Assembly (NCBI GenBank): GCA_020832905.1
Contig: JAJHRG010000002.1
Coordinates: forward strand, 1 to 64,000
DNA from: Thermoproteota archaeon
GTDB lineage: Archaea; Thermoproteota; Methanomethylicia; Methanomethylicales; Methanomethylicaceae
DNA length: 64,000 nucleotides
Direction: 5' to 3'
Numbering within the stretch: position 1 is the stretch's first letter; each line of letters opens with the position of its first letter. Shown here piece after piece: positions 6,410 to 54,120 of this stretch. Made by a program: the position numbers and the translations under genes. The notes under the pieces were generated by a model that was not told the DNA's origin, searched no databases, and saw only the letters and a program-made list of their open reading frames with translations.

Positions 6410-6715
6410 ATGATAATTGCAGAATTTACTGTAATACCAATGGGAACTGGAAGTACAAGTGTAAGTGATTATATTGCAGAAGTATGTAAAGAAGTAAAAA
6501 ATTCTGGATTAAGATATATGGTAACACCAATGGGAACAATAATAGAAAGTGAAAATTTAGATGAAATATTTAATGTAATAAAAAAAGCTCATGAAGTAAT
6601 GGTAAAAATGGGAATAAAAAGAATTGTTACAACAATAAAAATAGATGATAGAAGAGATAAAGAAAGAAAAATGGAAGATAAAGTTGAAGTATTAAAGAAA
6701 AAAGGAGTGGTTTAA
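6410..6715 (+). CDS. MTH1187/YqgV-family thiamine-binding protein (DUF77)
   Basis: FTVIPMGTGSTSVSDYIAEV...GLRYMVTPMGTIIE. Confidence 0.85.
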   Translation: MIIAEFTVIPMGTGSTSVSDYIAEVCKEVKNSGLRYMVTPMGTIIESENLDEIFNVIKKAHEVMVKMGIKRIVTTIKIDDRRDKERKMEDKVEVLKKKGVV

Positions 6716-7260
6716 AAACCAATTAAAAACGGTGTTATAAAAGTTTCTATAATAGCTGCAATTAAAAGTAAAATTAATGAAATAAAAATCCATTTCATTT
6801 CTTTTTTTAATATTTCAATAATTTTATATTCTTTATGCTTAATAATCTTCATAATTGTATAATATCCAAAACGAAAACTACTTGATGATGCAATAACTAA
6901 AGCACTTAATTCAAATATTCCATGAGGAGCTAATGCTTTAATTGCAATATCTATAGGTAATATTGATGCAATATAACCAGTTATAAATCCATTTAATATA
7001 ATTACAAAAATTGGTGAAATTAATAATATAGGAGATAAGAAAAATGCAATAAAAATAACTAATGTATTTTTAAAAAATAAGAAAATTACTGTAGAAATAT
7101 TATAAGGTTTATATAATTCTGCATAAGGTCTTAATATTTGATAAAAAATAGATTCTTCAATAGGAATTTTTGTTTTTGGAATAAAATAACCATAAAGTAT
7201 ACTTATTATTAATAAAATAATAGGAATTAAAATTGATATGTGAAATTTCCTCATAAACAA
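6712..7260 (-). CDS. Stage II sporulation protein M (DUF95) family membrane protein
   Basis: APHGIFELSALVIASSSSFRFG, multi-TM. Confidence 0.7.
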   Translation of the reverse strand: MFMRKFHISILIPIILLIISILYGYFIPKTKIPIEESIFYQILRPYAELYKPYNISTVIFLFFKNTLVIFIAFFLSPILLISPIFVIILNGFITGYIASILPIDIAIKALAPHGIFELSALVIASSSSFRFGYYTIMKIIKHKEYKIIEILKKEMKWIFISLILLLIAAIIETFITPFLIGF

Positions 7261-7296
7261 AAATAATAAAAATTATAGAAATATATCTTTCTAATT

Positions 7297-8238
7297 ATGA
7301 AAGAAGATATTAGAAAAGAAATAATTAAAGAAAAAGTTGAAGATTTAATTTTAGAAAAAGATTTGAAAGTTAATGAGCTTGTAAATAAATTTAAAAATCT
7401 AGGTGGATTCATGGCACCAAGAATTTATAAAGCTGTAGAAATTATAAAAGAAATGATTTCAAATAATTCTACAAATTTTCTATCATTTACAGGAAATTTA
7501 ATTGCAACAGGTATAAGAGGAGTAATATCTCAGCTTATAAGAAAAAGAATATTTCATGTGGTAATAACAACTTGTGGTGCAATAGATCATGATATTGCAA
7601 GATCTTTTGGTGCAAAATATTCATGTGGAGAATTTGAATATGATGATATATTTTTAAATAAAATAGAAATTCATAGACTTGGTAATGTATTAATTCCATT
7701 AGAAGATTATGGTCCATTAATAGAAAAAATAGTAAGAAAATATCTTCCAGAAATTATAAAAAATAAAGAAGAAATTTCTCCAAGTGAATTATTAAGAGAA
7801 TTTGGTAGTAAAATAGAAGATAAAAATTCTATTTTAAGAGCAGCATATGAAGCTAATGTACCTATATTTGTTCCAGGAATTATAGATGGTGCTTTCGGAA
7901 CAAATTTATTTTTCTATTCTAAAATGAATAAATTAAGATTAAATTTATTTAAAGATATGGAAATATTATTAAATATTGTTTTTGATTCAAAGAAAACTGG
8001 TGCATTAATAATAGGAGGAGGTATAAGTAAACATCATGTAATATGGTGGAATCAATTTAAAGAAGGATTAGATTATTGTGTTTACATAACAACAGCTATG
8101 GAATATGATGGTAGTTTATCTGGAGCATTACCAAGAGAAGCAATATCATGGGGGAAAATTAAGCCAACAGCAAAACATATTGCAATAATAGGAGAAGCTT
8201 CTATAATTTTACCATTAATTGCATCATGTATAATATAA
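7297..8238 (+). CDS. dys: Deoxyhypusine synthase
   Basis: HVVITTCGAIDHDIARSFGAKY; IGGGISKHHVIWWNQFKEGLDYCVYITTA. Confidence 0.92.
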   Translation: MKEDIRKEIIKEKVEDLILEKDLKVNELVNKFKNLGGFMAPRIYKAVEIIKEMISNNSTNFLSFTGNLIATGIRGVISQLIRKRIFHVVITTCGAIDHDIARSFGAKYSCGEFEYDDIFLNKIEIHRLGNVLIPLEDYGPLIEKIVRKYLPEIIKNKEEISPSELLREFGSKIEDKNSILRAAYEANVPIFVPGIIDGAFGTNLFFYSKMNKLRLNLFKDMEILLNIVFDSKKTGALIIGGGISKHHVIWWNQFKEGLDYCVYITTAMEYDGSLSGALPREAISWGKIKPTAKHIAIIGEASIILPLIASCII

Positions 8239-50411: not shown

Positions 50412-51530
50412 GTGAATATAGGTGATTATATGATAAGTAGAGAAGAAATATGGAATATAATAGAAAATTATGATTTAAATAATATTCATATTGGAGTTCT
50501 TGGAAGTCATTCTGCTTTAGATATACTAGATGGGGCAAAAGATGAAGGATTTAAAACTGTTATAGTATGTCAAAAAGGAAGAGAAAAAACATATCTAAAA
50601 TATTATAAAAGATTAGTTGATGATTATGTCTTATTAGATAAATTCTCAATGATGATAAATAATGATATTCAAAATTTCTTAAGAAATAAAAACACTATAT
50701 TTATTCCGCATAGAGCATTTTCAACTTATATAACTTATGAAGATATTGAAAATAATTTCTTAATTCCTATATTTGGAAATAGATATATGCTAAGAACTGA
50801 AGAAAGAAATTTTGAAAAAAATCAGTATTATTTACTTGAAAAAGCAGGAATAAGACAACCAAAGAAATTTAAATCACCATCAGAAATAGATAGACTTGTT
50901 ATTGTAAAAGTTCAAGAAGCAAAAAGAAAAATAGAAAGAGCATTCTTTACAGCAATAAGTGAAGAAGATTTTTGGAAAAAAGCAAATAAAAGAATTGAAG
51001 AAGGAGTAATAAGAAGAGAAGATTTAGAAAAAGCAGTAATAGAGGAATTTGTTATAGGAACTTACTTTAATTTTAACTTTTTCTATTCTCCATTAAAAAA
51101 TGAATTAGAATTTATGGGTATTGATAGAAGACTACAAACAAATTTACATGATTTTATTTCTCTTCCTGCAAAACAACAATTAGAAATTGATATAATATTA
51201 CAAAATATAGAAATTGGACATATGGGCGCAACAATAAGAGAATCAATGCTTGAAAAAGTATTTGAAATTGGAGAAAAATTTGTTGAAGTAACAAAAAGAG
51301 AATTTCCTCCTGGAATAATTGGACCTTTTGCACTACAAGGAGCAGTTACAAAAGATCAAGAAATTGTAATATTTGATGTTTCTCCAAGAATGCCAGGAAG
51401 TCCTGTAATAGGAACTACTAGTCCATATACAAAATATGCTTATGGAATTCAAATGAGTATAGGAAGAAGAATTGCAAGAGAAATAAAAGAAGCAATAGAA
51501 ACTGGAAGAATAAAGGAGTTGATTACATGA
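50412..51530 (+). CDS. purP: FAICAR synthetase PurP (copy 1)
   Basis: GVLGSHSALDILDGAKDEGFKT; ATP-grasp; GPFALQGAVTKDQEIVIFDVSPRMPGSP. Confidence 0.9.
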   Translation: MNIGDYMISREEIWNIIENYDLNNIHIGVLGSHSALDILDGAKDEGFKTVIVCQKGREKTYLKYYKRLVDDYVLLDKFSMMINNDIQNFLRNKNTIFIPHRAFSTYITYEDIENNFLIPIFGNRYMLRTEERNFEKNQYYLLEKAGIRQPKKFKSPSEIDRLVIVKVQEAKRKIERAFFTAISEEDFWKKANKRIEEGVIRREDLEKAVIEEFVIGTYFNFNFFYSPLKNELEFMGIDRRLQTNLHDFISLPAKQQLEIDIILQNIEIGHMGATIRESMLEKVFEIGEKFVEVTKREFPPGIIGPFALQGAVTKDQEIVIFDVSPRMPGSPVIGTTSPYTKYAYGIQMSIGRRIAREIKEAIETGRIKELIT

Positions 51531-52549
51531 GCTATATATCTGTTATAAGTTCTCATTCTGCACTTCAAATAATAAAAGGTGCAAAAGATGAAAATTTAAA
51601 AACTATATTACTTTGCTTTAAGGAAAGAGAAAAATTCTATAAAATGTACTGTTCACCTGATAAAATAATAATAATTAATAAAATTGAAGATATAATGAAA
51701 GAAGAAATACAGAAAGAAATTATGGAAGCTATTTTTATACCTCATGGAACATTAATTTCTGAAAAAAATTTAGATAAATTTGAAAAAGAATTTAGACCAA
51801 GAGTATTTGGAAATAAATGGATATTCAAATGGGAATCTGATAGAATTTTAAAAGATAGATTATTAAGAGAAGCAAGAATAAGAACTCCTCAATATTTTGA
51901 AAGTATAAATGATGTTGATAGACCTGTAATTGTAAAGCTTCCTGGAGCAGAAGGAGGAAGAGGATACTTTATAGCAAGAAATAAAGAAGATTTAAAAAAT
52001 AAATTAGAAGAACTAACTAAAAGAGGATTATTAAAAAATAAGGAAAATATTTTCATTCAAGAGTATATAATTGGAGTGACAATTTATCCACATTTTTTCT
52101 ACTCACCAATATATAATAGGTTGGAAATACTTGGATGTGATAGAAGATATGAAACAAATGTAGATGCAATTGGAAGAATTCCTGCAAAAGATCAATTAGA
52201 ATTAAATATTATTCCTACATTTACTGTAATAGGAAATATACCAATAGTATTAAGAGAATCTCTTTTACCAGAAATACAAGAAATAGGAGAAAAATTTGTT
52301 GAAGCTACTAAAAAATTAGTACCTCCTGGAATAATTGGACCTTTTTGTTTAGAAATGATTTGTAATGAAGAAGGAGAATTGTATACATTTGAATTTTCTG
52401 GAAGAATAGTAGCAGGAACTAATTTATTTATTAATGGATCATTATATAGCATACTATTATTTAATGAACCAATGAGTATGGGAAGAAGAATTGCAAGAGA
52501 AATAAGAAAAGCTATTGAAAATAATAAATTAGAAAGTATTACAACATAG
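51527..52549 (+). CDS. purP: FAICAR synthetase-like PurP paralogue (copy 2)
   Basis: SSHSALQIIKGAKDENLKT; PVIVKLPGAEGGRGYFIA; overlaps copy 1 by ATGA. Confidence 0.85.
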   Translation: MSYISVISSHSALQIIKGAKDENLKTILLCFKEREKFYKMYCSPDKIIIINKIEDIMKEEIQKEIMEAIFIPHGTLISEKNLDKFEKEFRPRVFGNKWIFKWESDRILKDRLLREARIRTPQYFESINDVDRPVIVKLPGAEGGRGYFIARNKEDLKNKLEELTKRGLLKNKENIFIQEYIIGVTIYPHFFYSPIYNRLEILGCDRRYETNVDAIGRIPAKDQLELNIIPTFTVIGNIPIVLRESLLPEIQEIGEKFVEATKKLVPPGIIGPFCLEMICNEEGELYTFEFSGRIVAGTNLFINGSLYSILLFNEPMSMGRRIAREIRKAIENNKLESITT

Positions 52550-52557
52550 GTGATTAT

Positions 52558-53226
52558 ATGTATCATATAAAATGTTCAAAAGTTTCTGAAAGAGTAATAG
52601 TATGTGGAGATCCTTTTAGAACTAAGAAAATAGCTTCATTTCTTGAAAATCCAAAACTTATAAATGAAAATAGATGCTTATTAACATATACTGGTATTTA
52701 TAAAGATAAAGAAATTACAGTATCCACTACAGGTATGGGAACGCCTTCTGCAGCAATAGTAATTGAGGAGCTTATAAAACTTGGTGCAAAAATTATAATA
52801 AGAGTAGGAACTACAGGAAGTGCAAAAGAAAATATAGAAGTTGGTGATATAATAGTACCAACATTAGCTATACCTTTAGATGGAACAACTAATACTTATT
52901 TAAAAAGATTTAAAGTAAATACAAAAGCTAATGAAGAACTAATTGAGATAATAAAGAAGTTTTTAAAAGGATATAAGTATCATATTGGACCAATATGTAC
53001 AAGTGATGTTTTTTATTTAGAAGAAGAAGAAAAAGATGTTTTAAGTTATGATATGGAATGTTCAATAATATTTGCTATAGCAAACATAAGAAATTGTAAA
53101 GCTGCAGCAATATTAACTGTTAATGGTAAAGCTTGGAGTGAACCTAGAATTATTGAAAATGATAAAGTTAATGAAAGTATTAATGTATGTATTAAAGTAG
53201 CTTTAAATACTTTAGCCAGTATATAA
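52558..53226 (+). CDS. Nucleoside/uridine phosphorylase family protein
   Basis: VIVCGDPFRTKKIASFL; STTGMGTPSAAIVIEELIKLGAKIIIRVGTTGS. Confidence 0.92.
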   Translation: MYHIKCSKVSERVIVCGDPFRTKKIASFLENPKLINENRCLLTYTGIYKDKEITVSTTGMGTPSAAIVIEELIKLGAKIIIRVGTTGSAKENIEVGDIIVPTLAIPLDGTTNTYLKRFKVNTKANEELIEIIKKFLKGYKYHIGPICTSDVFYLEEEEKDVLSYDMECSIIFAIANIRNCKAAAILTVNGKAWSEPRIIENDKVNESINVCIKVALNTLASI

Positions 53227-53364: not shown

Positions 53365-53394
53365 AGTTAAGAAAGTAAAAAGCAATTATTATAT

Positions 53395-53676
53395 TGCTGC
53401 AGTTGAGGTCGAGTAAACTCCTGCGGTATAAAAGTATGAACTAATACTCTCTATAGGTGGGATGTCACTCCAAAAGAGTGATGTCCTACCTATAGAGAGT
53501 AAGTTCATGCTTCTATACCGCAGGAGAACGCAAGACCTATTACAGTTAATGCAAGGGTCCTGGTGACAGGACTGCTGACATTAACTGTAATAGGTCTTGC
53601 AAAAAAGGAGGTCAAGAAGGAAGGCCTTTATAAGGCTGTACTCTTGACCTCCTATTACTCGACCTCAACTGCAGCA
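53395..53676 (+). ncRNA. Large structured RNA, four-way junction (cloverleaf-like), family unidentified
   Basis: P1 53395-53416/53655-53676 (22 bp perfect); P2 53418-53526 (~50 bp, loop CAAAA); P3 53530-53551/53579-53600 (22 bp perfect) with inner GTCCTG-GTGA-CAGGAC; P4 53606-53617/53642-53653 (12 bp); ~44% GC vs very AT-rich flanks. Confidence 0.85.
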
Positions 53677-53679
53677 TAA

Positions 53680-53699
53680 TTTTTATTTAATTCTATCTT
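53680..53699 (+). terminator. T-rich terminator-like tract following P1 (tttttatttaattctatctt)
   Basis: T-run immediately 3' of the structured RNA; could instead be the TATA region of the downstream gene. Confidence 0.35.
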
Positions 53700-53715: not shown

Positions 53716-54120
53716 ATGAAATCCTTTAGATACTACTTAGAAATATTAAATGAAATAAAATCAATAATAGAAAAAATGAATTATAGTTTATCCATGGTAA
53801 TAGTTGAAGGAAGAAATGATGAAAAAGTATTAAGAGAATTTGGACTTAAAATTCCAGTATATAGATTTCGTGAAAGTGGATTACCAAATTTTGAATTTAT
53901 TGATGAAATAGCAAAAAAATTCAAAGGAAAATATATTACAATTCTTTTAGATTTTGATAAAAAAGGAAATGAAATGAGTAATTATCTCAGTAGGGAATTA
54001 GAAAGTAAAGGAGTAAAAATTGATTATTATTTTAGAAATATTTTAAGAGAACTAATGATCAAAGAGGGTATTAGACATATAGAAGAAATAATCGCAATAA
54101 AAAGAAAATCTGAAATTTAA
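53716..54120 (+). CDS. Small TOPRIM-domain protein (UPF0292 / RNase M5-like COG1658 type)
   Basis: MVIVEGRNDEKVLREF; ITILLDFDKKGNEM (TOPRIM E and DxD). Confidence 0.82.
   Translation: MKSFRYYLEILNEIKSIIEKMNYSLSMVIVEGRNDEKVLREFGLKIPVYRFRESGLPNFEFIDEIAKKFKGKYITILLDFDKKGNEMSNYLSRELESKGVKIDYYFRNILRELMIKEGIRHIEEIIAIKRKSEI

Follow-up and report, generated by a model that had tools for sequence, protein, structure and literature searches.

Positions 53395-53676 of the analysed window (64,000 nucleotides from the start of a contig of a Thermoproteota archaeon in the Methanomethylicaceae) almost certainly constitute a non-coding RNA gene on the plus strand. The RNA belongs to a new family that is not catalogued in Rfam 15. 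Its broad kind, that of large structured orphan RNAs, is known, and the family is set apart by its archaeal host, its small size and the remodelled, almost fully paired copy found in the window. The explanation that best covers the data as a whole, and which we hold with slightly more confidence than doubt, is a free-standing structural non-coding RNA that would homo-oligomerise through the end of its fourth arm, P4. Large structured RNAs without an assigned function are known mainly from bacteria. The present example is a compact structured RNA that is fixed across an archaeal family with methyl-reducing methanogens among its relatives; because some of these have been brought into culture, its proposed properties can be tested.

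On re-folding, the element forms a single closed four-way junction with 122 pairs in 282 nt, and the coordinates, helices and counts given in an initial annotation, which had been made from the sequence alone, were all reproduced. The segment 53380-53690 folds at -204.8 kcal/mol, compared with -74.5 +/- 5.2 kcal/mol in 100 dinucleotide shuffles (z = -25). The closing helix P1 pairs 53395-53416 with 53655-53676 without a mismatch (22/22 pairs), and its 5' arm is the best-conserved sequence of the RNA, with the family consensus GCCGCAGUUGAG. P2 (53418-53526) is a rod of 50 pairs (13 + 11 + 26) that ends in a CAAAA loop and is interrupted by an AA bulge and one A.C mismatch. P3 (53530-53600) consists of 22 perfect pairs followed by an inner hairpin capped by a GUGA loop, and P4 (53606-53653) has 12 perfect pairs and a small inner hairpin. 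The assignment of the RNA to the plus strand is borne out by six G.U pairs that read on this strand, by a stronger fold (-204.0 versus -187.6 kcal/mol on the minus strand) and by a higher score with the covariance model of the family (38.5 versus 20.5 bits). The element is also richer in G/C than its AT-rich surroundings, as had been noted (124/282 nt or 44%, versus about 21-28%).

No known RNA family accounts for the element. An Rfam 15 search returned nothing at the gathering score, and the matches seen at relaxed thresholds were mostly to microRNA-type long-hairpin models, far below the cut-off. Twelve homologue loci had no Rfam match at E <= 1, and the copy at L065 gave nothing credible (best E 5.2). 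Archaeal SRP RNA and archaeal RNase P RNA are likewise structured RNAs of about 300 nt, the former mostly paired. SRP RNA is usually encoded by one gene per genome. The SRP RNA (RF01857) and RNase P RNA (RF00373) genes of this genome were found at other sites, namely G000:C6:9317-9630 and G000:C6:97056-97360, and neither model matches at the locus, in agreement with the annotation, which had set both RNAs aside. Membership of the OLE, ROOL or GOLLD families was rejected, as none of the Rfam models matches and the element is also far shorter. Searches of phage and plasmid records, and an exact-pattern search of viral contigs, found no relatives, and no description of the family was found among open-licence papers. 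The evidence thus supports the overall reading of the initial annotation, namely that an AT-rich archaeon encodes, on the plus strand, a structured RNA outside the known families.

The RNA is followed on the same strand by a gene for a 134-aa Toprim protein (53716-54120), which was used as an anchor to locate the syntenic site across the class. The RNA lies directly upstream of this gene, in the same orientation, in all 22 genomes of the window's taxonomic family. It occupies the same place in records of Candidatus Methanomethylicota (WYZ-LMO11) and Candidatus Methanomethyliaceae (SKYB85), and four metagenome contigs carry it as well. The upstream neighbour is a plus-strand nucleoside phosphorylase gene (PNP_UDP_1, 52558-53226), and the same gene order is found at L045, L046, L116 and L117. 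The homologues range from 258 to 333 nt, and a coding role is disfavoured because these lengths do not differ by multiples of three. A covariance model, R1, was built from 14 homologues of the family; it recovered the family genomes and gave no credible match in 378 other genomes of the phylum (two marginal hits, E about 0.07-0.09). The copy in the window escaped the stricter filters used there, and the search was therefore rerun with laxer filters on the window genome and 18 other genomes of the class; the window copy was then recovered genome-wide (E 3.9e-10), and the 18 other genomes yielded no credible match. Toprim orthologues outside the taxonomic family are not accompanied by the RNA.

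In five genomes (G003, G004, G005, G009 and G016), R1 additionally detects paralogues, nine in all. Their neighbours are mutually unrelated and include rhodanese, PAP2, QueC, HD-domain and IS200/TnpB genes, among others, suggesting that the RNA acts in trans. Five of the nine (L110, L112, L113, L114 and L115), drawn from three genera, form one clade and hence represent an old second gene type. The paralogue at L111:6015-6272 lies just upstream of, and on the same strand as, IS200-type TnpA and TnpB genes (6556-8144); as only this one of the nine is so placed, a linkage to IS200/IS605 elements was judged to be chance.

Covariation is decisive in showing that selection acts on base pairing. Uncompensated disruption of the stems, which the annotation had named as evidence that would count against the RNA, is not what the homologues show. 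In an alignment of 31 sequences, which is biased toward the structure because it was fitted to it, 48 of 68 pairs have changed on both sides, compared with 23.9 +/- 2.6 in shuffles, and standard pairs occupy 93.1% of the cells versus 36-44% when the partners are slid. These helices are also recovered by an independent MAFFT alignment of 14 sequences, in which both partners have changed at 20 pairs. P1 is paired in 96.8% of cases, with changes on both sides in 9 of its 17 pairs; the corresponding counts are 10 of 11 for P4 and 5 of 5 for its apical pairs. Even between the window and its sister genome, of 92 shared pairs in a structure-aware comparison, 67 are unchanged, 13 differ at one partner and 12 differ at both partners, and the 12 compensated pairs are spread across P1, P2, P3 and P4. 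A mutual-information search for tertiary pairs ranked the true helix pairs at the top, and its non-nested candidates were inseparable from shared ancestry, so that none is claimed.

The flanks of the RNA carry signals of their own. When the upstream regions of 31 copies are aligned at the start of P1, position -26 is A in 97%, positions -28 and -27 are almost only A or T, and a T/A-rich stretch extends from -10 to -1. For a start at P1, the box of an archaeal TATA promoter is expected at this spacing (about -26). The predicted box of the window is TTAAGA, a consensus match at 53367-53372 on the plus strand (-28 to -23 from the P1 start). Immediately downstream of P1, most copies turn T-rich, as in CTCTATTTTGG; in the window this tract reads TAATTTTTATTT, and the plus-strand tract at 53680-53690 is a likely terminator, the same place being T-rich in most relatives and paralogues. 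From a promoter-like box at the right spacing and a terminator-like tail we infer a free-standing gene, and independent transcription is very likely on the strength of these signals. A TATA promoter of the RNA's own would direct transcription to start at P1, and the T-rich tract behind P1 would end it. The mature RNA is predicted to extend from P1 to P1', 53395-53676. A further T-rich element recurs in the upstream profile around -54 to -52, and the second RNA type (L110 and L112-L115) has an upstream motif of its own, like TTGCATCAGG, about 50-55 bases before P1.

The description of the RNA as nearly fully paired applies to the window's genus, in which 85-86% of nucleotides are paired, and does not extend to the family, since the value is 73-74% in the next genus and 57-70% in the others, which make up most members. 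Near-complete pairing is a derived trait of the window's genus. Most genera have a junction without unpaired linkers. The P2 arm of the relatives contains purine-rich internal loops and, in many copies, a GAAA or UUCG cap. The P3 arm of most relatives contains a conserved internal loop whose 5' strand has GGA..UCC and whose 3' strand has CCGCGG, or in some CCAAAGG, CCGAGG, CUGAAG or CUGCAG. P4 is capped by a small loop of about 7-9 nt that contains CCAUGG. In the window genus, most internal loops have been swapped for Watson-Crick pairs and the architecture has been kept, as would be expected if shape were the selected trait. A genome-wide trend to more pairing was considered as the cause and rejected, because the SRP RNA (77% paired versus 70-77% in relatives) and the RNase P RNA (64% versus 57-68%) show no comparable shift. 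The change is thus largely confined to this RNA. Sister lineages that share the architecture and have opposite loop content amount to a natural experiment in which shape can be separated from loop motifs.

The hexamer at the apex of P4 is self-complementary in all 35 copies, reading CCAUGG in 32, CCUAGG in L061 and L063 and UUAUAA in the window (53628-53633, plus strand), where it was placed opposite the hexamer of the relatives by a by-eye alignment with L050. The loop is thus self-complementary throughout, and its changes preserve the palindrome. No RNA contains a second copy of its hexamer, so an intramolecular six-base duplex cannot form. In the tree of the neighbouring gene, L061 and L063 do not group as sisters, which implies that the AU to UA change arose at least twice, or once with reversals. 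Palindrome-preserving changes of adjacent nucleotides have been used to support the symmetric kissing loops of OLE and GOLLD (PMC12286853), and it is the same kind of change in P4 that leads us to commit to a homo-oligomerising structural RNA. We hypothesize that the RNA works neither as a guide nor as a riboswitch but forms a structural particle. A rigid four-way junction would hold the arms, and two or more copies would be joined at the apex of P4, where CCAUGG would pair with CCAUGG in a symmetric kissing loop. In some genera P3 may add further self-complementary contacts, and proteins may bind the conserved P1 and junction.

For the family at large, sequence comparison leaves oligomerisation through P4 evenly balanced. 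The hexamer is nearly invariant, so that the palindrome argument rests mainly on the two swap events, and a conserved protein-binding loop could mimic the pattern. In the window's own species, assembly through P4 is doubtful, given that a UUAUAA contact would be weak and would compete with a tighter local hairpin. A contact through P3 is opposed by the fact that the CCGCGG palindrome is not kept by all members (CCAAAGG, CCGAGG and CUGAAG occur). We put forward, tentatively and at somewhat less than even chances, a wider reading in which the family would self-assemble as a symmetric RNA or RNA-protein particle via palindromic kissing loops. In this reading the RNA would have been present in the ancestor of one archaeal family, later duplicated in several genera and remodelled in the window genus into a near-pure Watson-Crick scaffold of the same architecture. 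The oligomer model makes a sharp prediction, namely a dimer or oligomer that depends on a six-base loop, that is broken by one point mutation and that is restored by a second.

The proposed particle has counterparts among known RNAs. OLE is also a large structured orphan RNA of extremophiles and has a symmetric kissing loop with palindrome-preserving changes (PMC12286853). In contrast to the present RNA, it is bacterial and about 600 nt long, there is no sequence or Rfam match between the two, and the oligomer described here is only predicted. ROOL and GOLLD are orphan structured RNAs that assemble with their own copies by kissing loops; however, they are phage-linked and about 600-800+ nt long, whereas the archaeal RNA is chromosomal and about 260-330 nt. 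A purine-flanked palindrome, GGCGCC, is carried by the P3 apical loop of L050-L052 and so only by the window's sister genome and the neighbouring genus; the window has a GUGA tetraloop in its place. The HIV-1 dimer initiation site has a six-base self-complementary sequence in a hairpin loop of 7-9 nt. The P3 loop of L052, which reads AAGGCGCCA, has the same layout, including the flanking purines; the HIV-1 site is a packaging element of a retroviral genome, and no relation is implied.

The main rival is a monomeric RNP scaffold or protein decoy, in which proteins would bind P1 and the junction, as well as the purine-rich P2 loops where these are present, and the P4 loop would be a protein site. 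We consider it unlikely, if far from negligible. The sequence conservation of P1 exceeds what pairing needs, CCAUGG is nearly invariant, and protein binding is known from large orphan RNAs such as OLE (PMC12054373). Two points count against this rival: the swaps from CCAUGG to CCUAGG preserve self-complementarity and not sequence, and a strong paired fold is retained in the window copy although its purine-rich and P3 loops are gone.

Beyond the scaffold, the remaining explanations are all improbable. A trans-acting antisense RNA, whose CCAUGG apical loop would pair with start-codon regions of mRNAs, is favoured by two points: the hexamer, self-complementary and with an AUG inside it, would match CCAUGG around start codons, and paralogues exist, as they do for regulatory RNAs. 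Against it, only six bases would be available, these read CCUAGG in L061 and L063 and UUAUAA in the window, and all other loops are gone from the window copy. With almost no free strand left in that copy, a guide or antisense role is unlikely.

Slightly less probable still is that the RNA acts in cis as a leader of the Toprim gene that follows it, either in the manner of a riboswitch or as a processing site. Its position just upstream of that gene on the same strand in 22/22 genomes would suit such a role, as would the weak similarity of the Toprim protein to the RNA-processing enzyme RNase M5 (TIGR00334, E 1.6e-4). However, the nine paralogues lack a Toprim neighbour, and the related downstream genes that are expected of a riboswitch are not found beside them. 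The RNA has its own promoter and T-rich tail, no expression-platform variant was seen, and the Toprim orthologues outside the taxonomic family lack the RNA.

A similarly low probability is given to the window copy being a drifting relic, its arms perfected by quasi-palindrome correction during replication and its extreme pairing without function. The P1, P3 and P4 arms are indeed perfect at the DNA level, and the conserved loops of the family are gone. Against this, P2 still has G.U pairs and its A.C mismatch, the 12 compensations relative to the sister genome are separate events, the promoter box and synteny are retained, and the pairing of the SRP and RNase P RNAs of the genome has shifted far less.

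A MITE-like mobile DNA element, to which the annotation had thought identical copies with target-site duplications would point, is scarcely credible despite the perfect terminal inverted repeats and the paralogues dispersed in five genomes, of which one is next to an IS200/IS605 unit: the window genome holds a single copy, its remaining matches being the element's own arms, base pairs covary across deep divergence, and a mobile element is excluded at the window locus by the same site in 22/22 species together with the lack of target-site duplications or flanking direct repeats above shuffled flanks, at the paralogues as at the window.

Several observations on the surrounding genes and genomes may be added. 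RNase M5 is an RNA-maturation enzyme, and the Toprim protein could, judging from its resemblance to it, process the neighbouring RNA, although its orthologues outside the taxonomic family occur where the RNA is absent. The sister genome G001 (L045) has no RNase P RNA match, probably owing to a gap in the metagenome assembly. The RNase P RNA of the window genome (L041, G000:C6 about 97040-97376) has a terminal helix that continues for 15 perfect base pairs beyond the ends of the Rfam model, compared with 2-5 in relatives. Further upstream in the window, at 50412-52549, two PurP-like ATP-grasp genes lie side by side, the second of which (51527-52549) matches formate-phosphoribosylaminoimidazolecarboxamide ligase models below their cut-offs.
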